Of a stretch of 64,000 nucleotides of DNA, positions 6,454-49,911 are shown one piece after another (within the stretch, counting starts at the first letter, position 1; each line of letters begins with the position of its first letter). Below the pieces are notes generated by a model that had not been told where the DNA came from, ran no database searches, and was given only the letters and a program-made list of their open reading frames with translations. The position numbers were made by a program, and so were the translations under genes. Origin of the DNA: Siphonodentalium dalli (lineage: Eukaryota > Mollusca > Scaphopoda > Gadilida > Siphonodentaliidae). The stretch covers positions 132,637,282 through 132,701,281 of the forward strand of contig CP136062.1 of NCBI GenBank assembly GCA_032622095.1. Direction: 5' to 3'.

Positions 6454-6844
6454 CCCTTTACCCAACAGAAGGGCCCTGTGCCAATGCATTCTCTTATATA
6501 TGCGAGTCGACCATAGGTCGCCTCGCATATATAAGAGAATGCATTGGCTTAACACATTAAAAATTATAAAATTGTTAAAGAATGTAAGAAAAAATGGTAA
6601 AAAGTGTTAAAAAAAGATTTTTTTAGGCCAATGCATTCTCTTATATATGCGAGGCGACCTATGGTCGACTCTCATATATAAGAGAATGCATTGGCACAGG
6701 GCATAACTGTAACTATCACAATGTGGTCAAGGAGCCGATTCCAATGATATCCATATTTGTATGGTTCTATTGAGACAGACCGAAAATATTTTAGGCTGTT
6801 GAAGCTTTATTTGGCCGGTTTTGGCCGGTTTGTTGGGTAAAGGG
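6454..6844 (+). mobile_element. TTAA element family A, copy 1
   Basis: Flanked by TTAA at 6450-6453 and 6845-6848. The ends are CCCTTTACCCAACA and its complement TGTTGGGTAAAGGG. Inside are two near-perfect hairpins (module H, about 6476-6548 and 6628-6702), inverted relative to each other around an A/T-rich spacer, then 'gaagctttatttggccgg'. TTAA duplication plus CCC ends is the piggyBac pattern. There is no transposase, so it is a MITE. Copies: 26262-26650 (opposite orientation) and 49515-49911. Confidence 0.9.
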
Positions 6845-7110
6845 TTAAACGATATTGTTCAAATTTGATAGCTCCCATCTATAGGTAATTCTAAAAATCC
6901 ATATGAAGATTGGTGGTGAACGGAAGAGGGATTGGTCTGTAGGGTGTGCCAAAGGTTTTAGTCTTGCAAAGAGTTAAATCCATGTTTTTCATCGAAAATC
7001 GTTCAAATTCAATAGCTCACATTTATGGGCGATTCTAAACATACCTAAACATATCTAAATTGTTGATGGACGGATTGACCTGTAGACGGATGGATGACGG
7101 ATGCCAACAC

Positions 7111-7604
7111 ATGGCAATAATTTTGTATATAACAAAATTTTAAGGTATACATTTACATCTATTTTTACTACCTTTTCTCTGCATCGCTTAAAACTATATT
7201 GACAATTCTCTTTGGTGTGACTTCTGTACATCAACAGGATATCATACAAACTCATATCATGGTGACAATTGATCACAAAGCAGATAAAGTAGCCGTTCGA
7301 TAACGTATTGTCCTTTCAAACAACAGACAAACCAGTTATGACATTCCGCAATCAGGCTTTGACGAGATTGCATCGACTGGGGGGACTAATTATTAAAACA
7401 TGTGTTATGGGAGTCGACCAATAATATAGGTTTCTCTGTTTGCCATGAATAGGGGGTTTAGAGGGAAGCTTTTATCTTAGAATACTCTTAATTAGCGTTT
7501 TGGCTTTGTGTGGGGTAAAACACATGTCGTCGATCAATAGAAGAATTAGCGCAATCTGCGTTTGACATCAATAGAACCTCCAGGCTTGACATGGCTATGT
7601 GTGA
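7111..7604. other. Unassigned stretch
   Basis: No gene seen. The phrases 'aaaacacatgt' and 'gcgcaatctgcg' just before 7570 recur near 8365-8440, so this is probably an outer part of the tandem unit listed next. Confidence 0.35.
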
Positions 7605-8520
7605 TGCAGCTTTGTTGAATATCAAGTTAAAGTGACATGGTGCAAATGATAGCCATCTTCCCTAGAGCTTCAAATAGTGTGTCTGTCATTTGCAGAATGA
7701 GGTCCCCAGAGGGTGAATTTAGTGACACTATCTCACACAGAGGGCTAAATCACCAAATGGACTATCTGGGGACCTCATTCTGCTTAGGCCTTAACTGCTA
7801 TGGGAGACCTATGATCAGATTGGTGTTCCCCAGTTGAAGTTGGTGATGGTCACTTCGATTTTTATCTTCTGCAAATTAGGGGATATAGAAACTTCACAGA
7901 AGGTAAAAAGTAATTCAAAACAATGTTAATTTGAGAATATAGATACTTCCCAGAAGATGAGACCTAAGCATAATGAGGTCCCCGAGTGTGAATTTGGTGA
8001 TGCTAGCCCACTGTGCAGGATAGCGTCACTAAATTCACCCTCTGGGGACCTCATTCTGCAAATGACAGACACACTAATTGCAGGCTTTGTTGAATATCAT
8101 GTTAAAGTGACATGGTATAACTGATAGCCATCTCCGCTCGAGCTGAGTTAGTTAGTGAATTTTTCCTAAAGACAGGATGTTTTTGTTTTATCTCGTAATA
8201 TTTGAGTATGAATAAGGATGGAGTCTCTCTTTAATACTTGCAATTCTAATCTAGATTCCAAGCTCTAAAATATATGTTCTGAGTTGATGGCGTCAGCCAA
8301 CAAAAGCTTGTGTGACTAGAAATTAATTTTTTCTTTCCTCTGTTTCTACACACTACCACAGTGGGACAACACATGTTACTATTTTTAACACTACACTGTT
8401 TGGCAGAGATTCAATGCTATCGATAATAACAAAATCAGCACAATCTGTTATGGATATCAGGCTTACATGGCTATGTGTGATGCCGCTTTGTTGAATATCA
8501 AATTAAAGCCACATAGGGGT
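7605..8520 (+). repeat. Local tandem repeat around 'gctttgttgaatatca'
   Basis: A phrase of about 60 bp ('gctttgttgaatatcaagtt', 'aaagtgacatgg', 'gatagccatct') occurs at 7610-7665 and 8085-8145, and its first half again at 8488-8515. The first two copies flank element J2. The unit looks tandemly duplicated, with J inserted at one junction. Confidence 0.6.
7671..8087. mobile_element. Foldback element family J, copy 2
   Basis: Ends AGTGTGTCTGTCATTTGCAG and complement. Each end folds into a hairpin of about 45 bp arms ('gaggtccccagagggtgaat' with complement). The middle keeps 'cttctgcaaattaggggata'. About 400 bp, no coding potential. Full-length relatives are at 35239-35662, 37367-37812 and 43777-44183. 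Confidence 0.85.
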
Positions 8521-8608
8521 TTGAGCTTCAAAATACACATAATATTTGTTTATCCCAGTATCGAAATAGGTCGATAAATATCTGAACTACCATTCTATGA
8601 GCATTATA

Positions 8609-8816
8609 CAGTAATGCCCTAAGTAATCGACTCCTTAAACACAGCAGAATTATGGGTAACTTTTCAGGATTTAGTCGGAAATATGGCTTGTTGCGATTCA
8701 TCGGAAAGCCCGAGAGCTTTCCGATGAATGGCAACAAGCCATATTTCCGACTAAATCCTGAAAAGTTACCCATAATTTGGCTGTGTTTAAGGAGTCGATT
8801 ACTTAGGGCATTACTG
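8609..8816. mobile_element. Tc1/mariner-like palindromic MITE family I, copy 2
   Basis: A palindrome with CAGTAATGCCCTAAGTAATC ends and TA on each side (8607-8608, 8817-8818). The arms meet at 'cccgagagctttccgatgaa' near 8709-8728. The overlapping frames at 8528-8899 (minus) and 8652-8852 (plus) encode almost the same peptide because the DNA is palindromic. They are not genes. Confidence 0.9.
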
Positions 8817-8819
8817 TAC

Positions 8820-9120
8820 GTTCCAGAAAGACACATTGAAGTCATAAAATAATAAAACTTTGTACACAATGTAGGGGCCCCATAAAAAAACAACGCCATT
8901 TGTATTCATCGGAATTCTGGAATTGGAAATGGGATGTCCGGAAAAGGTATATTGTGTTATCTTAACCCTTTACCTAATAATAATATGACTAATGTCATTA
9001 CCTCCACCCAATACTGATTGGAAAGAATATGGCTTATTGGTTTACATTTTGTATGGACCATATATTGACGATTTAACTACCAAATGATGGTACATAAATG
9101 GTGATTATTTATCAAATGCT
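8820..9120. other. Unassigned stretch with a solitary TTAA-type end
   Basis: TTAA at 8962-8965 followed by CCCTTTACC resembles a family A left end, but I found no matching right end nearby. It may be a truncated copy. No gene seen. Confidence 0.4.
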
Positions 9121-9123
9121 TAA

Positions 9124-9434
9124 CTCTTTCAGTGCCAGGCTTATTTTGTAGGTTTAGTGCCAGGGAATCTTACGTTTTTCATGGGCATCAAAATTAATTA
9201 CTATGAATACTTGGCAATAGTTTTGAGTTATAACAAGCCCTAAGGACTTATCCAGTTTGTTTTTAAATTCGCTATAGCATGCTTAAGCATACCCAAAAAA
9301 AATTCAACCCCAAAACAACAAAAAAAAATATAAAAACAAAAAACAAAAAACAAATTAGGGCCGAACTTATCGGCCCTGGCACTCTACAGACCGTAAATTA
9401 GAGCCGATGAGATCGCCCCCTGGCACTGAAAGAG
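9124..9434. mobile_element. TTAA element family M, copy 1
   Basis: Flanked by TTAA (9120-9123 and 9435-9438). The ends are CTCTTTCAGTGCCAGG and complement, matching those of copy 2 (19719-19927). The interior includes an A-rich stretch and the phrase 'gggccgaacttatcggccct'. Non-coding. Confidence 0.8.
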
Positions 9435-9597
9435 TTAACGGCTTAACTATCTTTAATGGAACATAAATCCTATAGAAAAGATACTGAAAATATACATAAT
9501 TGGGAAAGAAAGTTCTCGTGGGATGCAATGTGTGAATGGTAAGGATTTATTAATCGGACAACAAAACAGTTGTTGCCCTTCTTCTCAAGAGACATCG

Positions 9598-9653
9598 AGA
9601 TTTGTCACCCGCTCGGGATTGGAATGTCCGTTCTCGAGCGGGTGACAAATCTC
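9598..9653. repeat. Hairpin with 19 bp arms
   Basis: GAGATTTGTCACCCGCTCG at 9598-9616 is followed, after a 19-base loop, by its exact complement at 9635-9653. I saw no second copy in the window, though 'cgggtgacaa' repeats at about 9671-9680. Confidence 0.8.
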
Positions 9654-9717
9654 AATGTGTCCCTCAACATCGGGTGACAACTGTATATTGGATCATTATA
9701 AAACTTCTGTTTTGGAT

Positions 9718-10064
9718 GACCGACTGAATTCATTGGTCCACAAGAGTTAAATTTCACCCTATAAAAATGGATTCCTCCATTCAGTTATAAAAGATTAGAT
9801 TGCAATGGTCTATTATTCATTTGGAGGGGTCTTCATGTAATAAAAGCAGACAGACAGAAAAACATATGATATAATTTCAGAATGACTCATATTCATTGGT
9901 GGGAAATGCTCAGATAGTAAGTTCTTCAACAATGGTCATTTTGTTGAACTAATTATCTGAACATTTCATAAGGGAAGAACTCATCAATGAGTATTTAGTA
10001 TAGAAAGGGTTAAATCTTCGATGACTGACTGGAATTCATTGGTCCACAAGAGTTAAATTTCATT
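9718..10064 (+). mobile_element. TTAA element family E, copy 2, between 40 bp direct repeats
   Basis: The E core lies at 9757-10009, followed by TTAA (10010-10013). On both sides lies 'gaattcattggtccacaaga' with adjoining bases (from about 9726 and 10030). The left TTAA next to the core is not intact. The outer repeats are too long to be a normal target duplication, so a local duplication is likelier. Confidence 0.65.
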
Positions 10065-10440
10065 ATAACCCTGATCAAAAATGATTAAGATCACGTTGAT
10101 ATATATCATATTTCAGGTCACACACTAAGCGTTGTACACAATCATTATATCATGCTTTCTCATTCGCAAATGTGTCTGCCGGCGACATTAAGAAATGTCT
10201 ACATTCTATTATAGAGGGTAGGAATCCATATCACTCATGGTACCAATTGTCAATTCTCTGAATGGTAGTAGTTAGATTGGTTCAGGCCGAGAGCAAAAAC
10301 TAAACAAATTACTTCACATTATAGCTCGCGAGATAATTAAACGGGAGCTGGTTATTAATATAGCCCAAACTAAAGGTGATCTCAAAACATCAGACAATAC
10401 TTAATCAAAATATGACAATGTTTCCGAAGTCATTAGTCTT
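10065..10440. other. Unassigned stretch
   Basis: No gene, hairpin or repeat copy recognised. Confidence 0.4.
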
Positions 10441-11245
10441 CTCTGGACTCTATTGGGATTAAGACAACTGGACATTTGTCATGTGACCTCTCAGGCCTTA
10501 AGATCACGTCTTTTATATCTCGCTGTCCAGTTTTTGTTATTGGGATGGTTTCGGGGGCGATATACAACAAAGACTTGTGAGATTATATTTACTCGACTGG
10601 TTGGGCTATTTGATCAGACTGTTTGCATCGTTAATCCGGGAGGGTGATTCCCCACTTCCATCGAAGATGTTATTTAGACTGATTCGACTAATTCAACACT
10701 TGATTCCTCCATATTGTAACACAGATTAGAAATGCTTGTTAAAACTGCTTCCATATTAGTCAGGGCAGAACAATGTGAAAAACGACAAGGGTTGTAAATC
10801 AAAGAGTTTTTGTGCATAAAAAAATTTATCTGTCAGAACAGAATTTCAAATTGGTTGACATTTGTTAAGTTATCATTCTAACGATCTAAAAAATCCAGAT
10901 TTCGAACTTAATCGAGATATTGTTGTTAAAGAACCATATACCAAAAATTAATGGAATTGGTTGACGTATGTTCAAGTTATTGTGCTAATGGCCATAAAAT
11001 TGCTAAAACATTTACAAATTAAAGGCCATATTAAGTCAGAAAAAAAATCGTACACGCCTTATATTTTGGTTGAAATTATATATAGAGTGTTTGGGTTCTT
11101 TGCATCAATAATCCAGGATAGTAATTCCCTCCCAATTCCATCAAAGATGTTATTTAGATTGAATAGACTAATTCAACACTAGAGTGCTCCTCATTTTAAC
11201 ATAGATTAGAAATACTTGCTAAAACTGCTTCCATATTTAACCCTT
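10441..11245 (+). repeat. Tandem repeat family U, about 480 bp unit
   Basis: The segment near 10600-10765 ('gaagatgttatttagactga', 'actaattcaacact', 'aaaactgcttccatatta') recurs near 11080-11245 with about 480 bp offset and clear divergence. Two copies only. Confidence 0.7.
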
Positions 11246-11880
11246 TGAACCCTGGAATGTAAATGTAAAATATACATTACCCTGGGTTGCGGGACAAAAT
11301 TAAGATGTTTCAAATTCAATACCCCTTTACAATGGAATCAAACACATATAATTCATTGTTTATATCAATCAGGATGCACTGAATTAGAAAACACTAATAT
11401 TATCTTATAAATGATCCTACATCCAGTGATTGAGTTTGCTATGGCATGCCCACCAACAGTTATCCCCAGGTTTCCTATGCAAAGGAACAGTATCTTATGC
11501 AGTCATACATGCATGTATGTTTGTGTCAATTACATCAGACATTTTAGGATATACCTAGGATATATCCAGTGCTAAGATATGCCCGATAACAGTTATCCTC
11601 AGATTTCCATATGTAAAGGAACAGTATCTTTATTGATGTCATACATGCATGTATGTTTGCATCAATAACGTCAGATATTTCAGGCAGCATCCGCTGGTCA
11701 GTTTTCCAGTTTTTAATTTAAAATAGGAATATGTATTGTATATAAACGACGATATATGCAGTAGTTATATCCTTGCTATGACATGCCCGATAACAGTTAT
11801 CACAATATTTCCCTATACAAAGTAAGAGTATATTTATTGACGTTATTTGTTTGTGGCAATTACATCAGATGGGTTTAATA
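11246..11880 (+). repeat. Diverged tandem repeat, three units
   Basis: The phrases 'catgccc', 'aacagttatc', 'aaaggaacagtatctt' and 'catacatgcatgtatgttt' recur at about 11450, 11580 and 11780. A TTAA at 11237-11240 followed by CCCTTTGAACCCTGG looks like another TTAA-type end, but no partner was found. Confidence 0.6.
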
Positions 11881-13510
11881 ACACTACTTGAGGAAAGATT
11901 TAAATAGATAAGAAAAGACAGACTATTGCAAGGTCCTCCATAATTGATAGTGTGTCGCAAGCAGCAGAAGGAGTTTTATGGGAGACATATTTCTGTAAGA
12001 ACCCCCAACGCCCACCCTTTCCTAATAATTGTGGTCAGAATGTGCCAGGTGAACCACAGCCTATTACACCATCAAAGTTATCCGAGAGGCACCAATAAGA
12101 TTAATATAATTTGACTTATAGTAAAGGTCCAATGAATTGCCCAAAATGTGACAACCTTGGAATTCTAACAATGATATTTAATTCAACCTATTGTGGGTGC
12201 TATAGTACCAAAAGAGTTGACACTACTTCGAGAAAAATCAATTTCAAAAGATAAGAAAGGAAGACAGACTAATGCAATATCCTCCACTATTGATAGTGTA
12301 TCGCAAGAAGCAGAACCTATAATAGAGGGGTTAATCTATCTGGAACAAGTTTCGCACATTTATACGAGACACATTTCGGTAAGTACCCACCCTTTCATAA
12401 TGTGCCAAGTAAACCACAGGCTAACATCATGAAAGTCATCTCAGAGGAAGTGCATACTAGCAGGGACTAATAAGATTAACATAATTGGACTTGTAGTAAA
12501 GGTCCAATGTATTGCCCAAACTGTGACAACCTTGGAATTCTAACAATGATATTTAAATGATCACACACCATCTGCATTCACACAATTGGCTTCTTAACAT
12601 TTTCCGACTTTCTCCAGGCAATAACTGAAGTTGACCACTTTATAAAAGTGCACATGCTCAGTGTGTGTTGTCCACTTCACAAAAAGCGATGAACCACCTA
12701 CCTCACTTTAAGATGCGTGTTATTGGGAGACTGTGTTGGAATTTGAATAATATATGTTACTTGCAATCGTTATGGTACTTTTGAAAAGTTGTTCAAATTA
12801 TTAATGTTCTATTAAAATGTACTGGTATAAGATTATAAGGAATGACTTGCAGATCGATTGGGGTCATTGATTTTGACCGGAAGAGTAATTAAACAAAGTT
12901 CGTGTGAATCCAATCAGGATTCACACATTTGTTTAATTACTCTGCAAGTCAAAATCCTAAGACCCCGATTGATCTGCAAGTCATTTCTTATTTGAACCTA
13001 TGGTGGGTGCTATAGTACTAAAAGGGTTAATCCTACTTGAGGAATTCAAAAGATAAGAAAAGAAGTAGGACTATGGCAATGTACTTTATAACTGATAGCC
13101 TGTCGCTAAAATTTATAAGAGACACATTTCGGTAACCTTTCCTAATGATTGCGGCCAGAATGTTCCAAGTAAACAACAGGCTTACATCATGAAAGTCATC
13201 CCAGAGGAAGTGTTTACAAGCAGGGACTAATAAGGTTAACACAATTTGACTTGTGGGAAAGGTTCAATGAATTGGCCAAAATGTGCCAACCTTGGAATTC
13301 TAACAATGATATTTAATTGAACCTATTGTGGGTGCTATAGTACTAAAAGAGTTAACACCACTAGAGGAAAGATCGATTTCAAAAGATAAGAAAATAAGAT
13401 GGACTATTACAAAGTTCTCCATAATTGATGGTGTATCGCAAGAAGTGGAACCTATAATAGAGGGGTTAATCTATCTGGAACAAGTTACGCAGATAAGAAA
13501 TGAAGAGTGA
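11870..13510 (+). repeat. Tandem array family G, 325-375 bp unit
   Basis: Four units (the last partial) start near 11870, 12187, 12998 and 13319. Each has 'ttgtgggtgctatagta', 'aaaagataagaaa', 'gatagtgtatcgcaag', 'cctataatagaggggtta' and 'ccttggaattctaacaatga'. An F element (12556-12990) sits exactly between the second and third units. Short frames at 12193-12432 and 13328-13510 follow the unit and share the same start, so they are repeat-derived. Confidence 0.85.
12556..12990 (-). mobile_element. F element, copy 1, with hairpin C
   Basis: The body (12556-12835) matches 36765-37072 and 33008-33298 in inverse orientation ('gatcacacaccatctgcatt', 'aaaagcgatgaacca', 'acttttgaaaagttgttcaa'). It is joined to hairpin C at 12836-12990, whose arms are built on 'aatgacttgcagatcgattg' and 'gcagagtaattaaacaaa'-like sequence. 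Inserted at a unit junction of array G. No target duplication is certain. Non-coding. Confidence 0.8.
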
Positions 13511-14298
13511 CTGTTCCCATTGGACAGTAAATTTATTTCGATGACAAGGATCAAGATAACCCGAGAAAGTATGAATTGGTCGAAACAATCACATAATAAG
13601 ATCGGGACACTGAGATCTCTCAACGGGAGACATTGAGGTCTTAGAATCCAATTCTATATAGAGATTACGCTCAGACATTAAGATGACTTCCTTAAAGACA
13701 TACAGTGTGCTCATTTCAGTCTATCACACTGATAACTGAGTACATCGGCATTTTGTCCACCAAAGGCACATATCATTCAACCAATTTTAAATCATAACAA
13801 AATGTAAACCTAGATTATCATTGGACTTTCTTGGAAAATAATTATCCATCATAAATGATTTTCGTTTTTTAATGGTCTGTGTTACATTGTCTCTCAGACA
13901 GCCTTAAATGGTACTATTATGATCATGATTAAGAACACATAGTTGGCATACACAGAACATTTGTGACACAGAATTTAAGTATCTTATACGTGACAGAAAA
14001 GAGCTACATATTTCCCCCCTTTTTCTCCCAGAATGCATTGCAAGTCGCTGAATTCTAAATACAAGACAATGTTACTATGATCCACCTCAAAACAAGTACA
14101 GAATCCAAACAATCCACGATACTTTAACAATAAAGCATCATATTAAAATGTTCCATCAAATAACTGAAATTATGAATTGTTGAAACAATCACACAATAAG
14201 ATCGGCACACACAGAGGTAGCTCAATGGGAGATGTAGAGTTCTTAGAATCCAATACTTAAATAGAGATTACGATCAGACATTAGGATGACTTCCTTAA
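13511..14298 (+). repeat. Pair of about 140 bp direct repeats with unassigned spacer
   Basis: 13562-13700 and 14166-14296 match imperfectly ('aaacaatcacataataagat', 'gatgacttcctta'). The second copy runs directly into a family B end. The spacer shows no gene. Confidence 0.65.
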
Positions 14299-14400
14299 CC
14301 ATTTCAGGACAGGAGCTGCGCTGGTGCAGAATTAAAGATCATATTCCAGTGCATTCTCTTATATATGGGGGTCTCCCATTGGGAGCCTCACATATATCCA
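14299..14400 (-). mobile_element. TTAA element family B, truncated copy
   Basis: TTAA (14295-14298) followed by CCATTTCAGGACAGGAGCTG, then a degraded hairpin H half ('ccagtgcattctcttatata'). The other end is missing. Confidence 0.65.
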
Positions 14401-19714: not shown

Positions 19715-19718
19715 TTAA

Positions 19719-19927
19719 CCCTTTCAGTGCCAAGTCCGATTTTTTTATCAACCCATATTTCCTTGATCATTTTACAAATTTATTGATTATAAAATAATGT
19801 GATACACTAATGGAAAGAGCTCTAAGAACTCTTTCCATCAATGTATCACATTATTATAATCAATACATTTGAAAAATGATCAAGGAAATATGGGTTGATA
19901 CAAAAATCGGACTTGGCACTGAAAGGG
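19719..19927. mobile_element. TTAA element family M, copy 2 (full palindrome)
   Basis: Flanked by TTAA (19715-19718 and 19928-19931). The two arms are near-complete complements from CCCTTTCAGTGCCAAGTCCG inward to 'gaaagagctctaagaactct' at the centre. One arm carries small indels. It would fold into an about 95 bp hairpin. Copy 1 (9124-9434) shares the ends but not the full palindrome. Confidence 0.9.
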
Positions 19928-19964
19928 TTAAGAACGAGTTAAAGCCAGTAGCAGGAATACTTAA

Positions 19965-20293
19965 CCCTTCCATGACTGGAGCTTCCTGAAATTTTGCGAA
20001 AAAACCCCTGTGCCAATGCATTCACTTATATACGACAGTCTCCCATAGGGAGCCTACATATATATATATAAAGAGAATACATTGGACTAACAATATATAT
20101 AATACCTTGACTTTGTAATCCAGTGTATATATAAGAGAACGCACTAACTATTTCTTAATAACTCCTTATTGTGGTCCAAACACAGCACTTTGAGTGATGT
20201 CACAGGAAAAGTTACATAACCAAACCATATAAAGGCACAGGGAATTTAATGCTGCACATGCGCAGCTCCCGTCATGAACCTCATGAAAGGGTA
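19965..20293 (+). mobile_element. TTAA element family B, full copy
   Basis: TTAA (19961-19964) then CCCTTCCATGACTGGAGCTT. The right end has 'cagctcccgtcatgaa' and 'tgaaaggg' but a degraded TTAA. The inside holds a mutated H hairpin ('ccaatgcattcacttatata') with an expanded TA run near 20062-20080, and a half of a second one. Non-coding. Confidence 0.75.
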
Positions 20294-25095: not shown

Positions 25096-25353
25096 CCCTT
25101 CCATGACTGGAGCTTCCTGAAATCTTGCGAAAACCCTGTACCAAAGCATTCTCTTATATATGTGAGTCTCCCATAGGGACTGCCTCACATATATAAGAGA
25201 ATACATTGGCCTAACAATATTTACATTGACCTTGTAACCCAGTGCATTTTCTCATATATGTGAGGCTCCCTATGGCCTAATTACACATATAAGAGAATTC
25301 ACTGGCACAGGTTCTTTAATACTGCACCAGCGCAGCTCCCATCATAAAAAGGT
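25096..25353 (+). mobile_element. TTAA element family B, copy
   Basis: Begins CCCTTCCATGACTGGAGCTT and ends with 'gcaccagcgcagctcccatc' then 'ataaaaaggtaa'. Two H-type hairpins lie inside (about 25140-25209 and 25231-25306), with 'gtgagtctcccatagg' loops rather than the 'gtcgaccataggtc' loops of family A. The flanking TTAA sites are mutated. Confidence 0.75.
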
Positions 25354-26082: not shown

Positions 26083-26741
26083 TCCATTCTACACTAAATA
26101 TATTCTCCCATTCAGTTATAAAGTACACATTAGAATGGTCTATTGTTCAATTTTATAGGTATTCAGGTTATAAGAGCAGATGATAGACAAATGAAAAGAT
26201 AATACAAGTACAGAAGAATTCATTTTCATTGGTGGGAAATGTTCAGATAATATTTACTTAACCCTTTACCCAACAAACCGGCCAAAACCGGCCAAATAAA
26301 GCTTCAACAGCCTAAAATATCTTCGGTCTGTCTCAATAGAACCATACAAATATGGATATCATTGGAACCGGCTCCTTGACCACATTGTGATAGTTACAGT
26401 TAGCCTGTGCCAATGCATTCTCTTATATATGCGAGTCGACCATAGGTCGCCTCGCATATATAAGAGAATGCATTGGCCTAAAAAAATCTTTTTTTAACAC
26501 TTTTTACCATTTTTTCTTACATTCTTTAACAATTTTATAATTTTTAATGTGTTAAGCCAATGCATTCTCTTATATATGCGAGGCGACCTATGGTCGACTC
26601 GCATATATAAGAGAATGCATTGGCACAGGGCCCTTCTGTTGGGTAAAGGGTTAAACAAATCAACATGTTTGTTGAACATACTATTTGAACATTTCCTAAG
26701 GGACCTAACTACTCATCAATGAGTATTTAGTATAGGAAGGG
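26083..26741 (+). mobile_element. TTAA element family E, copy 3, containing element A2
   Basis: Flanked by intact TTAA on both sides (26079-26082 and 26742-26745). This is the clearest evidence that family E targets TTAA. Ends: TCCATTCTACACTAAATA and, reversed, CCTTCCTATACTAAATACTC. Element A2 (26262-26650) is inserted at an internal TTAA, so E predates A here. Confidence 0.85.
26262..26650 (-). mobile_element. TTAA element family A, copy 2, nested in E
   Basis: TTAA at 26258-26261 and 26651-26654, ends CCCTTTACCCAACA and complement. Opposite orientation to copies 1 and 3. Both H hairpins are intact (about 26407-26477 and 26555-26628), each with roughly 32 bp arms and a 3-base loop. Very close in sequence to copy 1, so probably a young subfamily. 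The frame 26494-26679 is the reverse reading of the same peptide seen in the other copies and is not a gene. Confidence 0.9.
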
Positions 26742-26906
26742 TTAACCATGGTCGACTCGCATATATAAGAGAATGCATTGGCACAGGGCCCTTCTGTTGG
26801 GTAAAGGGTTAAACAAATCAACATGTTTGTTGAACATACTATTTGAACATTTCCTAAGGGACCTAACTACTCATCAATGAGTATTTAGTATAGGAAGGGT
26901 TAACCA
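26591..26906 (+). repeat. Exact 158 bp tandem duplication
   Basis: 26591-26748 and 26749-26906 appear identical base for base. The unit runs from inside the A2 hairpin, across the A end, through the E end and its TTAA. It is either a very recent duplication or an assembly artefact. Confidence 0.9.
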
Positions 26907-27460
26907 TGGCTGAGAGCAGACAGAAATCACTATTTCCAGATGAAATATGGGCAGGACAGAAACCAAATTTAAAATGATATATGAGTGGACGGATAAAAAT
27001 TCAACATATCCAAATGAACCAAGGGATAACTCTTGAACAGAAAATGCAAAGAACATAACTGAACCCTCTTTTGAAAGCCCTCCTGATGCCAAACATCCAT
27101 ACCAAATCATTGAGTTCTGATAACCCATGGTTGAGATCTACGAGCAGACGACAGAAATTCAACATTTTCAGATAAACAAAGAGGGATAACTCTTGGAATG
27201 GAAAATGTCCACAATATCAATGAATCCATCTTTTGAAAGCCCTCCTGATGCCAAACCTGCATACCAAGTACATTGAATCTTATAACCCATGGTTGACATA
27301 TGTGAGCAGATGGACACACAGACGGATCCAGTATACCCCACATCTGTTGGATGGGGGTTATAATTATCTTTGTTTATCACCCCTGTTGGTTTTATTTAGT
27401 GACAGATACACAGGTGATGTAGGCATTAATCTGTAGATTGGATAGAGGAACATGTCATAG
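26907..27460 (+). repeat. Tandem repeat family R, about 210 bp unit
   Basis: Two units share 'caaagagggataactcttg'-type, 'gaaagccctcctgatgccaa' and 'ataacccatggttgaga' phrases (from about 26985 and 27150). It ends with 'agacggatccagtatacccc' and 'ggatgggggttataat', a tail common in mollusc repeats to my knowledge. Related pieces: 30590-30740 and 55150-55640. Confidence 0.7.
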
Positions 27461-27518: not shown

Positions 27519-29890
27519 ACTTAGATAACTACCACAATGAAGTATAGAAATATTAACAACACTATTAATTACCTGTCCGCTAATAAATCACCACCTTCTG
27601 TGTTGCCAGTTTTGATGAATTTTCTTCATTTTGATGCCTGGCAATCAAGATTGCACTAATGTATATTGGATATCACAGGAGTGGTAGGGTTATACATAGG
27701 TAACTACTCCAATGCTACATGCTACATGTTACAAGTATGGAAATATCAACAACACTATTAATTACCTGTCCGCTGCTAAATCACTACCCTTTTGCTGCCT
27801 GCTTTGATGATTTTACTTCATTTTGATGCCTGGCAATCGAGATTGCACTAATGTATAATCAGGCGTTCCGCTAGTAGGGCAGGGGGTCCCTTTAAGGGTC
27901 CCATCCCCCCAGCCAATTTCCCCCCTTCTGTCATACCACAGGACATATTCCATATGTATAAAGGTATAAAGATGTTTACTTCTCAATTTTGTTGGGACAG
28001 TACTAAGAAATTTAAAGACATATTATGTACTTGTTCGGGTGCGTGAAACTGATAAGTTATTATTCAGGTGCTATGCCAACTGGAGGAATGTAACATTCTA
28101 CTAACATCATCAAAAATCTCAAGCAGATCGACCGTACCACTCCATAGAAAACATTGTCTGAACTACGCTAAATTGTAAATATTTACTACTGGAATCGGGA
28201 CGCTTCTATCGGCGATAAACTAACAAAAACTATTTCGCCATCGGCAGTTACTGCGTTTAATTAATATATTAGAATGACGGTGTGTGTTGTCAATTTAGAT
28301 ATAATATGTGTAAAAATAACTACTTTGAACAAGATTATTCTCCATTTCTATTTGATCACCCTACCGGAGTGTTTCACATCACTTTAAATAGTTGACAACT
28401 TTATTTGATTTCTACTTTCTAGCGAGAATATACACTCGGACCGATCTAACCCTAAAAGTTGGATGTCAGTATGTCTGTTGGCCGGAGCTACCATTCAACG
28501 TGCAGTGTCGATGTGTTCCATTAAGAATATAGAGTACACTTTATTTAGTTTTTACTGAAATGCTCCGGATTCTGAACGAGCACACCAGCCTCTGCATGTC
28601 GCTCTCTAGCTCCAACCTGCAGACACAGTTAGATGAACTGAGGAAGTGATCAAACCCGACATCGCTAGAACACATGATTTGGAGTCCGCTGGTTATGTTG
28701 CTTCGGTTAGGTTACGAAAAATGACCGCCGATAATTTAATCATACCCACTGCTTCTATCTTCATGTCGTAACATATATACATCACTCCATTTTTTTCAAA
28801 GCATCTTATCTATGTTTATTATAATTTAGCTTGATATTTAGAACTAAAACATTACGCCTTCATTGCTTCCAACCTGCTAATCGTCTATCTGCTCAGTGTT
28901 ATATTCCAGCACGTTATGCATCCGAACTATCTGCCGAGTCTTGAATAGTGAGTCGTTTAACTTCAACGGGCGTGTTTCCATATACTGGGAACAACACAAG
29001 GCCTTCACCACCGGTGATCTATAACCTGGCAATTTTTTTTATCTAATAAATTTTCTAGGTTTTATAGTTATTGCGTTGATAGCATAGTAACTTGGGTAGA
29101 AAATGGATGCAAAACGATCAGCAAATCTACTCTCTGATTCTTCTATTGGCCGATACAACAAAAGTAGGTCCACTAGTGTTTCCATGACATTGAAAACATT
29201 GACGGCATTTTCCCCTCAGCGGATACAGGACCCGTTCCCAAAAACCTGGCGGAAAGCCTGGTATAATGGATATCACAGGAGTGGTAGGGTTATACATAGG
29301 TAACTACTCCAATGCTACATGTTACAAGTATAAAAATATCAACAACACTATTAGTTACCTGTCCGCTGATAAATCACTACACTTTTGCTGCCTGCTTTGA
29401 TGAATTTTCTTCATTTTGATATCTGGCAATCGAGATTGCACTAATGTATAATGGATATCGCAGGAGTGGTAGGGTTATACTCAGATTCTCAGATAACTAC
29501 TCCAATGTTACATGCTACATGTTACAAGTATAGAAAAATCAACAACACTATTAACTACCTGTCCACTGATAAATCACTACCCTTGTGCTGCCTGCTTTGA
29601 AGAATTTTCTTCATTTTGATGCCTGGCAATCGAGATTGTACTAATGTATAATGGATATCACAGGAATGGTAGGGTTATACTCAGGTAACTGCTCCAATGC
29701 TACATGCTACAGGTTACAAGGTAGAAATATCAACAACATTATTAATTACCTGTCCGCTGATAAATAACCACCCTTGTGCTGCCTGCTTTGATGAATTTTC
29801 TTCATTTTGATGCCTGGCAATCGAGATTGCACTAATGTATAATGGATATCACAGGAGTGGTAGGGTTATACTTAGATAACTACTCCAATG
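27519..29890 (+). repeat. Satellite of about 195 bp, split by a hAT-like element
   Basis: Units carry 'ggatatcacaggagtggtag', 'aacaacactattaattacct', 'ttttcttcattttgatgcct' and 'gagattgcactaatgtata'. Units lie at about 27519-27665 (partial), 27666-27859, then 29261-29455, 29456-29650, 29651-29845 and a partial unit to 29890. Identity between units is high. The interruption is the insertion at 27860-29260. Confidence 0.9.
27860..29260 (+). mobile_element. hAT-like non-autonomous element 2, 1.4 kb
   Basis: Inserted in the satellite: the left flank ends GTATAAT (27853-27859) and the right flank starts GTATAAT (29261-29267). Removing it restores a normal satellite unit. Ends CAGGCGTTCCGCTAG and CAGGCTTTCCGCCAG (complement) differ at two positions. 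A 7 bp match (8 bp with one mismatch) and CAG ends suggest hAT. The only frames are very short: 29 codons from about 28560, and about 50 codons from 29103 that run out through the right end. No transposase domain recognised. Confidence 0.8.
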
Positions 29891-30748: not shown

Positions 30749-30752
30749 TTAA

Positions 30753-30905
30753 CCATTTCATGAAGGTGGCTGCGCTGGTGCAGCAGTAAATATCATGTGC
30801 CAGTGCATTCTCTTATATATATATGAGTCTCCCATAGGAGCCTCGCATATATAAGAGAACGCACTGGTTTATAAGGTCAAGCAAATATTGTTAGGCCAAT
30901 GTATT
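30753..30905 (-). mobile_element. TTAA element family B, truncated copy
   Basis: TTAA (30749-30752) then CCATTTCATGAAGG and 'ctgcgctggtgcag', then one H hairpin ('ccagtgcattctcttatata' to 'gagaacgcactgg'). A second hairpin arm stops at 'ggccaatgtattt', where the F/C element begins, so B was broken at this junction. Confidence 0.7.
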
Positions 30906-31078
30906 TAAGAAATGGCTTGCAGATCGATTGGTCTCATTGGATTTTGACAGGCAGAGTAATTAAACAAATTATGTTTAATTACTCCGCCGGTCAAAACCAA
31001 TGACCCCAATCGATCTGCAAGTCATTTCTTATAATCATATACCAGTACATTTTAATAGAACATTCTATTGAACTTTCT
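30906..31078 (+). mobile_element. F element, copy 2, truncated, with hairpin C
   Basis: Hairpin C (30906-31031) has arms 'gcttgcagatcgattgg' and 'gcagagtaattaaacaaa' with complement, loop of only a few bases. It is followed by the first 45 bases of the F body ('ataccagtacattttaatag'). The body is cut off where the LINE 3' end starts. Confidence 0.75.
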
Positions 31079-33298: not shown

Positions 33299-33870
33299 AT
33301 GTGATTATTCTCTTATATATGTGAGGCCTCCTATGAGAGACTTGCATATTCACATGAAACCCTTATTATATCTTTAAAAAGCCATTACATATTTCCTTAT
33401 CACTCACTAATTAAGAATAGGTGCGTGCTGCATATCACTTGGCATCGTGCCAAAAAAAATGACTGCAGTGAGTCTTTACATTGATTCAGGCAGATTAATA
33501 CTATTTTGAAAAGACACCAACACCAGGCAATGCAAAATTATTGCTTTGTTCATTAAAGTTAAATTCTTGTCCAACTTTGTTACACTAACGAAAATAGACA
33601 CAAAAACAAAGAGGTAAATTGGGGGACTATATTTTCTGTCGCAGCCCCAGAGCACAATACTGACTGTCGTATACGGTTGTGAAGCGTCTCAGCCAACGCT
33701 GTAAATATATGCATTGTGCAACTTCTTTTAAGGATTTTGATTTGTTAAAAGGCATAAAGCTATAGTTTTTTGTATAGTGACATACAACATCAGTTGGAGA
33801 TCCTCTATATATATAAGAGATTGCATTGGCAGAGGGTTTTCGCAAAATTTCAGCAAGCTCCAGTCATGGG
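33299..33870 (-). mobile_element. Family B relic, heavily degraded
   Basis: 'attctcttatatatgtgagg' at about 33303 and 'atataagagattgcattggc' at about 33812 are H hairpin arms. The right end 'cagcaagctccagtcatggg' and TTAA (33871-33874) match a B left end in reverse. The roughly 450 bases between do not match other copies and may be an insertion or unrelated. No gene seen. Confidence 0.5.
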
Positions 33871-36279: not shown

Positions 36280-36281
36280 TA

Positions 36282-42727: not shown

Positions 42728-42754
42728 ACAGGTAGAAAAAAGATCACTCAGAGG

Positions 42755-42905
42755 GTTAATTTTAGGGAAATGACTCCACTGCGCATAGAAACCACCGACC
42801 CCCTCATAAACCAACTAACAAACTTTCCCAGATACAAAAAACAGGTTACCTTCCCGGTGTGTGGATCACAAATCTGCACTTATTGGGATCAGAACCAGCT
42901 CTGAC
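42755..42905 (+). repeat. Repeat family P, copy 3
   Basis: 'aatgactccactgcgcatag', 'accaccgacccc' and 'tgtggatcacaaatctgcac' match copies 1 and 2. Confidence 0.6.
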
Positions 42906-44183: not shown

Positions 44184-44800
44184 GCATGACAAACATTGTC
44201 CTAATTTGGCACCAGCTTGCTCAAATGCCACCAGAGGCAAACATTTTACGTCCAAATCATGTCCATGGACCTCCCTACTTCGGCTGTGACCCACACATCT
44301 CGCCAGTATTCACAATGCTATATTCAGGGGTCATGCCTGACGCTCTGGCGCCCCTGACTATGCCTGTATACAGCCAAATAATGTTCCCACAATCCTTAGC
44401 AACAACGACTATGACCTGATAAATCAGACTGCCTCACTCACTGATGAGCATGTTTGGTACTTAGACACAATCTATTGTGCCTTCTGAGAGGAAATCTATG
44501 TTAATGAGGTTTCTTTAATTAAGATCTAAATTTTGATTAATTAAATCTGAGCTTACTGCGATGGAGAAATCAATATGCGAGGCGCGGAGTTGGTCGAGAC
44601 CTGTGAGGGTTCAGCAAAGACAAAGAATCCTTGATTGATTTTGTGCAGCCATAATTAGAAAGCGTGGGCTTAATCTATCCGATATTAATTAAGAATTCCC
44701 AATTAAATAATTAAAGCTTGATTGCTACACACATAATTCATATTCTGCAATCTGCAAATTCAATAAAAGTTAACACTCTCCCACAATAGCTCAGTTGGAT
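44184..44800. other. Repeat-poor island rich in TAATTAA motifs
   Basis: 44500-44760 has about ten ATTA/TAATTAA cores ('tttaattaag', 'gattaattaaatc', 'cataattagaaagc', 'attaattaagaattcc', 'aattaaataattaaagc') and also 'gcgaggcgcggagttggtcg'. No copy elsewhere in the window. Candidate regulatory element by composition only. Confidence 0.3.
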
Positions 44801-45599
44801 GGTTCATGTTTTTAATAGCAACTGAATATGATATGTGGTATTCTGTTCTGCTGGTGGGGGTTGATGTTTAAACGTTTATGCATAAATGTACATCATGTGT
44901 TTTCTAAAATTTTGTGTCACCATGACATTTTTACTGATGAAATGTTGTCAGGGGAACAACAACAACAATAAACTTTCTCTGAAACTCGTTTTTAAGGTAA
45001 GTTTTCATTGTAGCCCCCAAATAAACACACAAGAATAACATCTTGTGTTACAAATGTCACCTAAAACTTATTTAACAGATAAGATTTCACTAAAAAAAAG
45101 GTAGTACTGTTCTAAAAATAGCCACTTATTCTGTTCCTGTTTGTGGAAAATAATTAATAACAAAAAGTATGGGTCTTTAAGTGAAACAACTTAGAAAGAC
45201 TTATATTTTAAATCAAGTATTTTGTAGAACACTCCCCGAGAACCCCTCAACCACCAAATTTGTGATCATATCATGGACACAGATCAATCAGAAATTCATC
45301 ACAATATCAGGTCCTTCCAAATGGTAAATATATAAGGGTCAATACCATTATCATGAAATACACATTTAACAGAATGTTGAATCAATTTTTAAAACAATAG
45401 ATTCGATATCTATTGTGCATTCCGAAGACCAAAGCTCAAGAGAATTCATAGAGGATATTTTCTATAAAGCTAGATCACAACAGCCCAGTTTCAAAGTGTG
45501 GAGAAGCCATTCAGATAGAAGTCAGGAACAATGAGACAATGCTTGAATTTTTAATGCTGAAAACCCAACTTGTATCTATGCCATAAAATCAACAATAAA
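44801..45599. other. Unassigned stretch
   Basis: No gene, hairpin or repeat copy recognised. Confidence 0.4.
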
Positions 45600-45990
45600 T
45601 TATTAAGCGAAGCTTGTTTTTCTAAATACTACTCAGTACTTCATCAATACAGCGGCTATTGTCTCCGAGCGAATCTCGAAACTCCGCTCCTATTATGAGG
45701 CATTGTTTAGAATGGTAAAAAGGACCCGTGTCTCAATTGTCGTCACTATAATATAAACCACAACAAAGCCGTCCCTCTTATCACAAACAATGGTGGCATC
45801 GATTTTGTTCACCATCTTTTGAACATTTTGATAGAAATAGATAGAACCACTTAGAAGCTAAGTATGGATTAAAAACAAACAAAAATGTTTTGCATATAAT
45901 TATTGACCAGACTGATGATACCCTGAATGGAGAACCAGTCTACTAGGTTTATGTATTTAATGTTCTGTTTGTGAAAACTTTGTCACAGTT
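45600..45990 (+). repeat. Segmental duplication copy 1 (mate 47400-47660)
   Basis: 'atactactcagtacttcatc', 'ctattgtctccgagcgaatc', 'aaaaatgttttgcatataat' and 'gatgataccctgaatggaga' occur in the same order in both. The second copy lacks an internal segment of roughly 130 bases. Confidence 0.85.
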
Positions 45991-46540
45991 TTAGTGCAAA
46001 TATATATATGGTTTGATTTATTGTGGTTTGATATTAACACATCTGCTTCGTTGAGGGCCCATGTTTATAGTTTTATTAAAACTTATTAACGTTATCCGAA
46101 TTACTTGAAGATTTTGCCATCTAATCTATTGATATACCTCCTGAAGCTCAGAACAGCAAATCATAAACTGCCTATAGAATGAGCAAGATGGAAGAAATCT
46201 CCAAATGATAAAGACAATAAGATATGCACCATATGTGGAGAATAATTAGAGATGAATACCATTTAGTTATTATATGCAGTCATTTGGATGAAATCAGAAA
46301 TCTGATTTAAATAAATAAAATACAATGATATAATGCTGAAGCTGTCTGTAATTTGTATTGACCAATCATTTAAATTATTTCAACATACAAGAAAAAAACC
46401 CACAAAACAATCATTCCAATCGAGCCTCGAGTACAAGTGCATGTCAGTTGCAGATTGATTGTTTGATGTCTTTGAACTTTGATTGAAGTATAGAAATATA
46501 CATGGTATATCCCCCTCAAGGCCTCAACATTGATTTAGCT
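45991..46540. other. Unassigned stretch
   Basis: No gene or repeat copy recognised. Confidence 0.4.
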
Positions 46541-46720
46541 GCAGTTACTGCACGTGACGTCAGTCGGGGCGATGTGCATCATGACTTGTTGCTCAGTCAG
46601 CGATTGGTCAATTTGGTCAGTATGTGTATGTTTCCATACTCATAGAAGCGTCGCTAATTGGTCACTTTGGGTGGAGGTTACCATGGGGCCGATGATCGCA
46701 GATGATGTGTGTAATCTAAA
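46541..46720 (+). promoter_or_regulatory. Promoter-like motif cluster
   Basis: CACGTGACGTCA at 46551-46562 joins an E-box (CACGTG) to a full CRE (TGACGTCA). Inverted CCAAT boxes (ATTGG) follow at about 46603 and 46656. GC content is above the surroundings. The frame from 46554 (97 codons) starts within the CRE and has no recognised domain. These motifs are known in animal promoters, but no transcript evidence is available. Confidence 0.3.
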
Positions 46721-46974
46721 TTATCCAACTTCGCGACTAAATAAGTACTCTTTGCGACTATGGATAGATCGTATTGCCTTCCATTTTGGTCTGGGCAAGT
46801 TGCAAATCAGGTTTGCTGCTATGCGAGTATTGTCACCATATGTATAAAAGCACCATTTATTTAGCAATAACAAACAGTGGTTCAAATTTGGTTTTGTTAA
46901 AGCTGCAAATAACATCTAAATCAAGTTATGCATCGCTTATGAAAACGTATATAGACTATTAATTCAAGTACTGC

Positions 46975-47065
46975 CTAGTACCGTGTACTCAACACTCAGT
47001 ACCGGTACCATGAAAATTGTGCAGGTACCGACGGTTCCGGTACTGGTACCATTGAGAAGCCTGAA
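46975..47065. repeat. 'ggtacc'-rich short repeat
   Basis: GGTACC or close variants occur five times ('agtaccggtacc', 'caggtaccgacggttccggt', 'actggtacc'), with partial palindromy. Purpose unknown. Confidence 0.5.
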
Positions 47066-47169
47066 ATCACCTTTGCCATTGCTGGATTGCTGCATGTTGG
47101 GCTAATGTAATGTGCCTTACCAACAATGCCATCAGGGTCCCCATGTATTAACATGGGTACATGTATTAA

Positions 47170-47387
47170 TCCTTCCATGACAGGAGCTTCCTAAAATTTT
47201 GCGATAACCCTGTGCCAATGCATTCTCTTATATGTGCGAGTCTCCCATAGGTAGCCTCACATATATAAGAGAATACATTGGCTTAACAATATTTACCTTC
47301 ACCTTGTAAGCCAGTGCATTCTCTAATATATGCGAGGGAGTCTTTAATCTTTAACGTTGCACCAGCGCAGCTCCCACCATGAAAGGG
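47170..47387 (+). mobile_element. TTAA element family B, copy with intact TTAA sites
   Basis: TTAA at 47166-47169 and 47388-47391. Ends TCCTTCCATGACAGGAGCT and, reversed, CCCTTTCATGGTGGGAGCT. Contains one H hairpin (about 47215-47281) and half of a second. This is the best proof that B targets TTAA. Confidence 0.85.
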
Positions 47388-47399
47388 TTAACTGCTTGT

Positions 47400-47660
47400 T
47401 ATTTTTTAAATACTACTCAGTACTTCATCAATACAGCTGCTATTGTCTCCGAGCGAATCACAAAACCTCCACTCCTATTATGTGGAAAGAGAAATAGAAC
47501 CATTTAGAAACTAAGTATAGTATGGATTAAAAACAAACAAAAATGTTTTGCATATAATTATTGACCAGTCTGATGATACCCTGAATGGAGAACCTGAGTC
47601 TACTGGGTTAACGTATTTAATGTTCTGTTTGTAAACACTTTGTCACTTATATACACATAT
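47400..47660 (+). repeat. Segmental duplication copy 2
   Basis: Mate of 45600-45990, starting just after element B, with an internal deletion. Confidence 0.85.
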
Positions 47661-48143
47661 AATATATTTGATGTTTTTATATAAATTATGCTGATATTAC
47701 TTACATTTAGTTTTTAGATTTCAGGTAATGTTTTTTTCTTTCAAAGAAATGGGAAATACGTTTTTCCTCATTTCTGACCCAAAAATTCCCAAAATGCATA
47801 ATCAACATGACTAATGGGTGATCATCACCAACTTCAACTGGAGAACTTCAAACTGATCCTAGGTCTCCCACAGCAGTTGACACCTAAGCAGAATGAGGTT
47901 CCCAGAAGGAGACCAGGGTCAGATTGAAGTTCCCCAGCTGATGTTGGTGATGTTCACCTATTAGTCACCTCAATTATGCATTTTATCTTCTGAAAATTAG
48001 GGGATATAGAATCTGAACAAAAGGGAAAAGGTAACTAAAACAATGTTAATTTGAGACTATAGATACTTCTCAGAGCATGAATGGCATCACTAAATTCACC
48101 CTCTGGGGACCTCATTCTGCAAATGACAGACACACTATTTCAA
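47661..48143. mobile_element. Family J, rearranged copy
   Basis: The interior ('caccaacttcaactggagaa', 'ctcccacagcagttgac') is followed by an inverted copy of itself ('agattgaagttccccagctg') and by a right end 'gcaaatgacagacacactat'. The left hairpin is absent, so this is a head-to-head fusion or gene-conversion product. 47740-47795 also shows 'catttctgacccaaaaattc', as at 40930. Confidence 0.65.
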
Positions 48144-48595
48144 GTCTTATGTACGTACATACATGCGTATGTCTTTGTGCAGCTATTGAGATGCAATTAA
48201 AAATTATCTATCTATCTATCTAAAGTTATGTGAACAAAATAATTTGTTTTCCTCGGCCTTAAATGCAATCCATTTAGCATATCATGCAAACTGGAGCTCG
48301 CAAGCAATGGATACATTAGAAAGGTGACAGTTATGCAATTTATATATATATAAATACAAAATCATCGCAGTATGAAACCTTTTTATATCGACACAATTGC
48401 TAAAGGATGTATATTACTAAAGATTGTTCCAGGGCAGTGCGTGTGCATACTTATTGACGAGTTCAGTGAATCACAATCACATGTTCTCAGATTATGGAGA
48501 TAATTACGAATTAACAAATTTATACGCTTATTTAATTATTCATTATTCATGAGGACATTGATTTTGCATGGTGGACATATAATTTGTTCGTCTGT
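48144..48595. other. Unassigned stretch with ATCT microsatellite
   Basis: (ATCT)n lies at about 48207-48222 and a TA run near 48347. No gene recognised. Confidence 0.45.
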
Positions 48596-48762
48596 AGGAT
48601 TAGGAGCTCGACCAGATATACAATTAAATGATCACATTGATTGAGCATTGTGGCTAGGATCAGTATCCAATGAGTTTGATACTCCACAATCACCAGCAAC
48701 ATGTCCATCAATGATTTAATATGGCAGGGAATTCATATAAATTATTGTTACATGTACCGGTA
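48596..48762 (+). repeat. Segmental duplication copy 1 (mate 50355-50565)
   Basis: About 130 bases are nearly identical ('gcattgtggctaggatcagt', 'gatactccacaatcaccagc', 'catgtccatcaatgatttaa'), then both read 'tacatgtaccggtatat'. Copy 2 has about 20 extra bases before that phrase. Confidence 0.9.
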
Positions 48763-49224
48763 TATGTGACCCACCATATCAAATCCAGTCGTAAGTCGGG
48801 ATTTTTTTACCCTGTGCCAATGCATTCTCTTATATATGCGAGTCGACCATAGGTCGCCTCGCATATATAAGAGAATGCATTGGCCTAACAATTTTTTATC
48901 ATTTTTTTTAAATAAATGTTTCTTAAAATTTTTAGGACATAAAATAAAAAACATCCATTACCCTGCAGGGAGCCCCACACATATATAGAAGAATATAGAA
49001 GAGTGTGGTCTGCTCATGTTTGTCTGGGGCTCTGTATGGGTGAAATTATAAAATTGTTAAAGAATACAAGAAAAAATTATTAAAATTGTAAAAAATTGTT
49101 AGGCCAATGCATTCTCTTATATATGCGAGGCGACCTATGGTCGACTCGCATATATAAAAGAATGCATTGGCACAGGGTAAAAAAATCCCGACTTACGACT
49201 GGATTTGATATGGCGGGTCACATA
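48763..49224. mobile_element. Foldback element V, carrying the H module
   Basis: Terminal inverted repeats of about 60 bases start TATGTGACCCACCATATCAA and continue through 'gtcgtaagtcgggatttttt'. Next come 'accctgtgcc' and hairpin H (about 48817-48884), a unique middle of about 200 bases, and a second inverted hairpin H (about 49101-49170). The right-hand spacer 'aattataaaattgttaaaga' is also found in family A, but the termini are unrelated to A or B. The flank is TA-rich, so the target site is uncertain. Confidence 0.85.
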
Positions 49225-49510
49225 TACAAACAATAGTTTGTTAGCAATTGTAAACAATTTCAGGTGCATTCCAAATAAGGGATACCTCTTTGTTCAATAA
49301 TGGGAGTATATGAGGAAACAATTCTATAATATTTGAATATCTTTGTGGAGCTACGTGTTTAGCGTGTCGGACTTGTCTTCGCTGTCAACACAGCGAGATG
49401 AGTTCGCAGCCTGCCGGTGGTCTATTGTGAGTTTTCACACAACAATGGCTTGGCTGCTTTGAACGACGTGCAATTGTCCGCTGCTCAAATCTCCGGTCAA
49501 GTTGTGACCC
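49225..49510. other. Spacer with a tRNA-like segment
   Basis: Apart from the segment at about 49345-49427, nothing is recognised. Confidence 0.35.
49345..49427 (+). ncRNA. tRNA-derived (SINE head-like) segment
   Basis: 'gagctacgtgtttagcgtgt' resembles a pol III A box and 'gagttcgcagcctgc' a weak B box at tRNA-like spacing. The stem 'cgctgt...acagcg' between them could be a variable arm, as in serine tRNAs. The acceptor stem does not pair well, so a functional tRNA is unlikely. A SINE remnant is possible. Confidence 0.3.
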
Positions 49511-49514
49511 TTAA

Positions 49515-49911
49515 CCCTTTACCCAACAGAACGGCCCTGTGCCAATGCATTCTCTTATATATGCGAGTCGACCATAGGTCGCCTCGCATATATAAGAGAA
49601 TGCATTGGCTTAACACATTAAAAATTATAAAATTGTTAAAGAATGTAAGAAAAAATGGTAAAAAGTGTTAAAAAAAGATTTTTTTTAGGCCAATGCATTC
49701 TCTTATATATGCGAGGCGACCCGACCTATGGTCGACTCGCATATATAAGAGAATGCATTGGCACAGGGCATAACTGTAACTATCACAATGTGGTCAAGGA
49801 GCCGGTTCCAATGATATCCATATTTGTATGGTTCTATTGAGACAGACCGAAGATATTTTAGGCCGTTGAAGCTTTATTTGGCCGGTTTTGGCCGTTTTGT
49901 TGGGTAAAGGG
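49515..49911 (+). mobile_element. TTAA element family A, copy 3
   Basis: TTAA at 49511-49514 and 49912-49915. CCCTTTACCCAACA ends, two intact H hairpins (about 49541-49608 and 49689-49766), the second with a small extra 'cccga' insertion. Interior 'aggagccggttccaatgata' as in copies 1 and 2. The frames 49417-49671 and 49655-49840 are the same repeat-borne peptides seen in the other copies. Confidence 0.9.

Follow-up and report, generated by a model that had tools for sequence, protein, structure and literature searches.

This study concerns a 64,000-nucleotide stretch of the genome of the scaphopod mollusc Siphonodentalium dalli (assembly GCA_032622095.1, contig CP136062.1, positions 132,637,282 to 132,701,281 of the forward strand; hereafter the window) and a hairpin module, M, which is housed there and genome-wide in at least four families of miniature inverted-repeat transposable elements (MITEs). 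These families, which we call shells, include A, B and D, flanked by TTAA, and V, flanked by a 2-bp, mostly TA, duplication. M is shared among these shells, its hairpin H is nearly invariant, one shell occurs with and without M, and recombinants between shells have become multicopy at different sites. From our point of view, these observations are best accounted for, with a probability of roughly 0.68, by a core M that sits in several shells of modular fold-back MITEs, among which template switching would generate recombinants that are then amplified through their tips.

M consists of CCCTGTG, the 67-bp palindrome H, an AT-rich spacer, a second hairpin H' in inverse orientation, and CACAGGG. 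The common unit exceeds the hairpin described in the initial annotation of the window, as it includes the CCCTGTG before and the CACAGGG after the hairpin pair. The 20-base hairpin arm CCAATGCATTCTCTTATATA has 29 matches in the window at no more than 3 mismatches (0.02 expected from shuffles), and its exact form is present 314,200 times in the 2.23-Gb genome (157,092 forward, 157,108 reverse), as compared to 0 genome-wide hits for the reversed-pattern control. When folded as single-stranded DNA, the M at 6474-6701 gives -97 kcal/mol (z -25), and in the fold of the whole module the two hairpins pair with each other and not each separately. A comparison of window positions 6400-6900 with Rfam gave no family match, as all 26 matches were to microRNA models and fell below the gathering score. 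Copies of the hairpin arm at G000:C1 ~820000-926000 are spaced alternately ~5.0 and 6.2 kb apart, which points to a long tandem array whose unit measures 11 kb.

The elements in the window are as follows:
6450-6848, plus strand: A element 1, TTAA to TTAA; M at 6474-6701; hairpins 6481-6547 and 6628-6694
26258-26654, minus strand: A element 2; M at 26404-26630; hairpins 26410-26476 and 26557-26623
49511-49915, plus strand: A element 3; M at 49535-49768; hairpins 49542-49608 and 49690-49761 (the second 5 bp longer)
48763-49224, plus strand: V element, TA on both sides; arms 48765-48809 and 49178-49222; M at 48810-49177; hairpins 48817-48883 and 49104-49170
19961-20293, plus strand: B element, degraded, with related hairpins
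25096-25352, plus strand: B element; hairpins 25141-25209 and 25239-25305
47166-47391, plus strand: B element; hairpin 47215-47281 and a half hairpin at 47311
14295-14399, plus strand: B fragment with a single degraded hairpin
30749-30910, plus strand: B fragment; hairpin 30800-30867
33809-33868, minus strand: B fragment with a half hairpin and the left arm
19715-19931, no strand assigned: D' element with D-type TTAA arms and another, hairpin-free core (shell without M), adjoining the B copy at 19961

The ends of A (6454-6844, 26262-26650, 49515-49911), the left ends of B (19965, 25096, 47170) and the ends of V (48763, 49224) lie where the initial annotation had placed them, and the presence of the hairpin in A, B and V, which it had reported, is confirmed and extends to D, a family outside that annotation. 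Its description of the termini as unrelated stands for V versus the rest and only partly among A, B and D, since the tips of the latter three all begin with TTAACCCTT, to which the V ends (TGTGACCC) are unrelated. The termini of A, B and D start with CCC (CCCTTTACCC, CCCTTCCATG and CCCTTTGAGTGCC/CCCTTTCAGTGCC; the tips of D are TTAACCCTTTGAGTGCC or TTAACCCTTTCAGTGCC). CCC termini typify the piggyBac superfamily. A perfect 158-bp tandem duplication at 26590-26909 comprises the last part of A element 2 and its flank, and a D-type element with TTAA ends and the D right-hand sequence, here without a hairpin, is found at 9120-9438.

The elements have the features of MITEs, being short (A 377-444 bp, n = 27; V 421-476 bp, n = 29; within length limits set by the search script) and high in copy number, with inverted termini and target duplications (TTAA or TA flanks), and judging from their length and AT-rich sequence they are probably non-coding. 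A TTAA duplication was found for D (18 of 20 with TTAACCC) and for two recombinants described below, R2 (6/6) and R1 (left side, 11 of 12; the right-side TTAA was set by the search pattern), whereas A elements were defined by TTAA tips and the B copies in the window are degraded in this regard. The flanks of V, in 31 rows with three loci counted twice, are TA/TA in 20 cases, AA/AA or TT/TT in 7 and unequal in 4. The two arms of V are concordant in 26 of 28 cases (permutation p 0.00035), which we dropped as proof of conversion, as it may reflect just two subfamilies.

The shells were surveyed in 20 arbitrarily placed 5-kb pieces and at 51 M edges, 40 of them picked by a 6-base word 240 bp upstream and 11 out of a further 12 by another word, with the duplicated loci L024/L025 and L037/L038 each counted separately. 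These edges belong to A (31), V (8), D (5) and B (3), and the remaining 4 are a probably truncated A (L041), a single hairpin with an unknown flank (L043), a V without left arm (L157) and an A without left tip (L161). A candidate D/B chimera (L023) was rejected, as it is a D nested in B. L100 (G000:C1:541950-544850) contains a tandem repeat of ~1.5 kb that comprises a D element and parts of B, and inside it B-type hairpins are themselves arrayed as a minisatellite of 97-bp units.

The left ends of A, its right ends, V and D all have the same consensus of CCCTGTG plus H (0/74 differences), based on the full-length sequences (A left 30 of 33, A right 41 of 42, V 61 of 76, D 25 of 26; the remainder are not full length). 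The identity of the A and V hairpins that was initially noted is thus confirmed, while the hairpins of B, of which 4 were full length, are related but not identical. The partly shared A/V spacer that had been noted corresponds to 53 aligned bp (score 71; shuffled maximum 34), and the D spacer matches that of V in 44 of 45 bp; the D copies examined contain one hairpin of D's own inside. The outer sequences of A and V do not match, again as noted before, given that A left versus V scores 8 (shuffled mean 9.5) and A right versus V 15 (shuffled maximum 19), which is no similarity beyond shuffles.

One could imagine that A, B, D and V all descend from a single hairpin-bearing ancestor, with H kept constant by constraint and the termini diverged. 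The TTAACCCTT tips and the CCCTGTG edge that A, B and D have in common fit such a descent, as do the B hairpins, which differ in the way an older version would. However, the outer sequences just described and the different target duplications of A and V do not, D arms also enclose a different, hairpin-free core, and R1 and R2 join known A and V parts at sharp points. We hence regard descent of all four from one ancestor as quite improbable, although for A and B alone it is possible.

A and V have been reassorted, and two of the A/V products are multicopy, as is evident from the copies of R1 and R2 at different sites. R1, first met in L033, is an A element in which a short A tip runs on into the V arm before M. 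Its junction string has 103 genome copies (57 + 46), and among the 13 fetched, the outer flanks differ in all 13, the other A tip is found in 12, and a longer stretch of the V arm is present in 2 and a shorter one in 11; at the junction, A and V have CAG (or AG) in common. R2 was approached through a pattern of V-spacer end, hairpin and A tip (44 genome hits, 21 + 23; three of them are evenly stepped on C9 and look like a tandem repeat). Six of 13 fetched loci (L174, L178, L179, L181, L182, L186) represent one family at six different TTAA sites, in which a complete V core lies between 62 bp from the right end of A, tip included, and the other A tip. The remaining loci are a truncated R2 (L185), A tips with a V-derived spacer piece (L176), three that begin with A spacer and may be A variants (L177, L183, L184), one in which the search used found no left M edge (L175), and a D arm combined with an A tip (L180). 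D and A have perhaps been reassorted too. L015:1815-2502 is a complex locus, in which repeated host sequence lies on either side of a V-type core fused to an A tip and another M end follows downstream.

The shells also differ in whether they are met without M. The V arm has 15,101 genome copies, and in 20 fetched loci all 28 arms lead into M (all loci from the first 14.5 Mb of C1, duplicates L063/L065 and L076/L077 included). For D, a 33-mer of the arm has 5,384 genome copies, of which 20 of 20 sampled lead into M (first 36 Mb of C1), and the D arm is joined to another core at 9,009 genome edges, where nine fetched loci are TTAA-type palindromes without H, like the D' element at 19715-19931. 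As the D arm leads into M and also into a hairpin-free core, D is a shell known with and without M. The exact M-free junction of A has 3 genome matches, a pattern that diverged M-free copies would escape; M has left CACAGGG-type remnants in two of them, and the third has, as a possible remnant, a CCTATGGTC stretch that is also present in H.

The initial annotation had suggested that the hairpin pair is captured by, or moves between, different shells. Capture is supported by the D arms with and without M and by the two multicopy recombinant shell/core combinations. Movement of the pair by itself is weakly supported: none of the 51 sampled edges belongs to a bare complete M, and three bare copies were found among 26 loci examined out of 649 genome places with [AC]TTTTA directly before M. 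Sixteen of these 26 have the V left arm; among the other 10, both edges of M are bare in L093, L097 and L099, a short V-arm stub is left on the right in L192 and L193, a full right V arm is present in L085 and L190, and L083, L084 and L095 end within the core. No constant target duplication could be established in the rare bare copies among these loci.

Such copies raise the question whether M itself is a small transposon with a TA target that inserts into other elements, in which case the sharing of M would be ordinary nesting. M is indeed bounded by TTTTA and TAAAA in V and in the bare copies, in keeping with a TA duplication, and the flanks of L093 and L097 look unique on either side, while L099 lies between 50-bp direct repeats (49/50 identical). 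However, the lack of a bare complete M at the sampled edges argues against nesting, as do the A and B edges of M, which are not TA. Furthermore, all V and D arms sampled lead into M, and the exact M-free A junction is nearly absent, unlike what chance nesting would produce. TTAA stands directly before CCCTGTG-H at only 289 places versus 314,200 arm copies, and M as a TTAA element was rejected as well. Nesting is therefore improbable, and since cores and shells are reassorted and bare M is rare, M resembles a conserved core that has been captured more than a hairpin able to move freely.

H varies less than the neighbouring DNA of the same copies, from ~3-fold less in V to nearly 60-fold less. 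In A (n = 27; 24 picked through an exact 27-base match at one M edge, plus 3 window copies), differences from the consensus amount to 7/2538 in the inner H, counted over the 47 bases outside the picking string, 63/2097 in the spacer and 79/3877 in the right arm. In 12 of 13 R1 copies, picked only by the tip string and without reference to H, they amount to 1/1608 in H, 42/1190 in the right arm and 111/967 in the spacer, the last inflated by gaps in A/T runs. In 19 of 20 D copies, H has 15/1244 and the next 60 bp 88/1050; further out (799/2965) the copies are too mixed for comparison. In V without the duplicate loci L038 and L065 (n = 27), we counted 30/2452 in the inner H, 227/5847 in the spacer and 52/2052 in the arms, and in the 8 V copies picked only by their arm 13/1041 in the whole H versus 59/1725 in the spacer. 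Variants common to at least two copies take up 0 cells in H of A versus 38 in the right arm, and in V 4/2452 in H versus 31/2734 in the middle spacer. Divergence of H at the rate of the termini, which the initial annotation had named as counting against its proposal, was not seen, as H is slower in every family measured.

The B hairpins offer a view of the pairing within H. In comparison with A/V/D, two neighbouring loop-side pairs are changed on both sides (U-A/G-C 13:12 and A-U/C-G 12:12). In an alignment that covers 13 of the 15 distinct hairpins of B type and 12 of the 60 of A/V/D type, six B rows of which stem from one tandem array (L100), 94.8% of the cells are paired, a value that 0 of 500 shuffles reach, as compared to 53.2% in the best shifted register, and 27 cells are changed on both sides versus 15.4 in shuffles. 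It is from the two loop-side pairs and the pairing percentage that structural support is drawn.

Taken as a whole, the hairpin pair would be the core of modular fold-back MITEs, with one core lineage, M, in several shells: A, B and D, with TTAA target, CCCTT tips and a piggyBac-like character, and V, with its 2-bp duplication. We infer that during repair or replication of one element the template may be switched to another element, either at short microhomologies, as at the R1 and R2 junctions, or within the long homologous hairpin tract inside M, and that a product which keeps two working tips would be multiplied by the transposase that reads those tips. A comparable sequence of template switching and subsequent transposition is proposed for multicopy chimeras of terminal inverted repeat (TIR) elements, the Pack-TIRs, in animals in PMC8277862. 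H could remain nearly unchanged in the source lineages if copies with an altered H propagate worse, owing to a function of the hairpin as DNA or RNA; alternatively, H may be the place of exchange. The genome contains 128 matches to a piggyBac-type transposase (PF13843), many of them without stops.

Several points weigh against this proposal. No recombination intermediate was seen, the junction microhomologies measure 2-3 bp and could reflect chance, and D with and without M would fit a gain as well as a loss. No autonomous partner was found in ~0.95 kb 3' of 20 of the 128 piggyBac matches, searched for exact TTAACCC/GGGTTAA strings only, and none of the three GGGTTAA ends in these flanks equals the tips of A, B or D. 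In the hairpin alignment, 4 pairs changed on both sides versus 4.4 in shuffles represent no excess. Private changes of V are about as frequent in H (33/3505) as in the arms (21/2052), a comparison affected by some V loci having been picked for exact arms, and are fewer in H than in the middle spacer (69/2734). Moreover, 96 distinct H differences were counted in 74 copies (an ungapped comparison of H1 with H2, in which small gaps inflate the 96), of which 0 are common to H1 and H2 of one copy and 0 are compensated, and within-copy divergence blends changes in the source lineage with those after insertion. We read this as H decaying after insertion roughly like other DNA and being held nearly constant, by selection or exchange, in the lineages that produce copies.

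These private changes also bear on the view that H is uniform without any function, through a mutational cold spot or frequent conversion among copies. The more than 300,000 exact arms would offer many conversion partners, and H lacks shared variants that do occur next to it. However, H evidently gains private changes, none of them present in both hairpins or compensated, and compensated pairs set the B hairpins apart from the rest; ongoing H1-H2 conversion, in particular, was not seen. We consider this view a possible but less likely account, and as it targets only the reason for the constancy of H, it is compatible with core/shell exchange. One could further speculate, as a rather doubtful extension of the modular-core proposal, that selection really acts on the hairpin cassette as its unit, i.e. 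on a sub-transposon parasite that outlives its carriers, is swapped into the currently active shells and lends them, by way of its hairpin as DNA or RNA, an advantage in amplification.

Apart from the MITEs, the window contains 161-bp tandem repeats of a CATAACTC-containing unit (459-863 and 1385-1680), which presumably resemble repeats common in molluscs, and further tandem arrays at 61623-61913 (AT-rich, 19/33 bp), 63240-63518 (43 bp) and 29261-29890 (~200-bp units).

Overall, the system lends itself to the study of core-shell reassortment among MITEs, some products of which have multiplied, and with the same core in different shells and the same shell with or without the core, it provides a test bed for the question why some MITEs outcompete others. 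It also carries a warning that, in genomes of this kind, transposable element families may be assigned wrongly if their definition relies solely on internal sequence or solely on ends. Known precedents are MITEs, chimeric TIR elements and the sharing of conserved cores by families, the latter from domains of short interspersed elements (SINEs) and from the V domain in a MITE (PMC6887750). Among the matches listed from the openly licensed literature, there was no earlier description of a near-invariant hairpin pair across TTAA- and TA-type MITEs together with multicopy recombinants.

With piggyBac-type MITEs, the elements A, D, R1 and R2 have in common that they lie at TTAA and begin with CCC, in a genome with piggyBac-type transposase genes, but their core is common to a family with a TA-type duplication, and none of the 20 sampled piggyBac 3' flanks has their tips. 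The highly conserved domains of SINEs, and the V domain in the MER6 MITE (PMC6887750), are similar in that a conserved module known from one kind of element is found inside a DNA MITE; the module here, however, is a palindromic hairpin pair among DNA MITEs, and no SINE turned up in the loci examined. Foldback elements such as Galileo and FB4 likewise have long inverted repeats and are frequently rearranged, but for FB4 PMC8277862 gives target duplications of 9 bp and more, as compared to TTAA or 2 bp in the present families. The Pack-TIR/FoSTeST chimeras of animals, described in the same source, are similar in that TIR elements gain sequence by template switching at microhomologies and the chimera is multiplied; the filler there is non-transposon or gene sequence, whereas here it is a conserved core that passes between element families.

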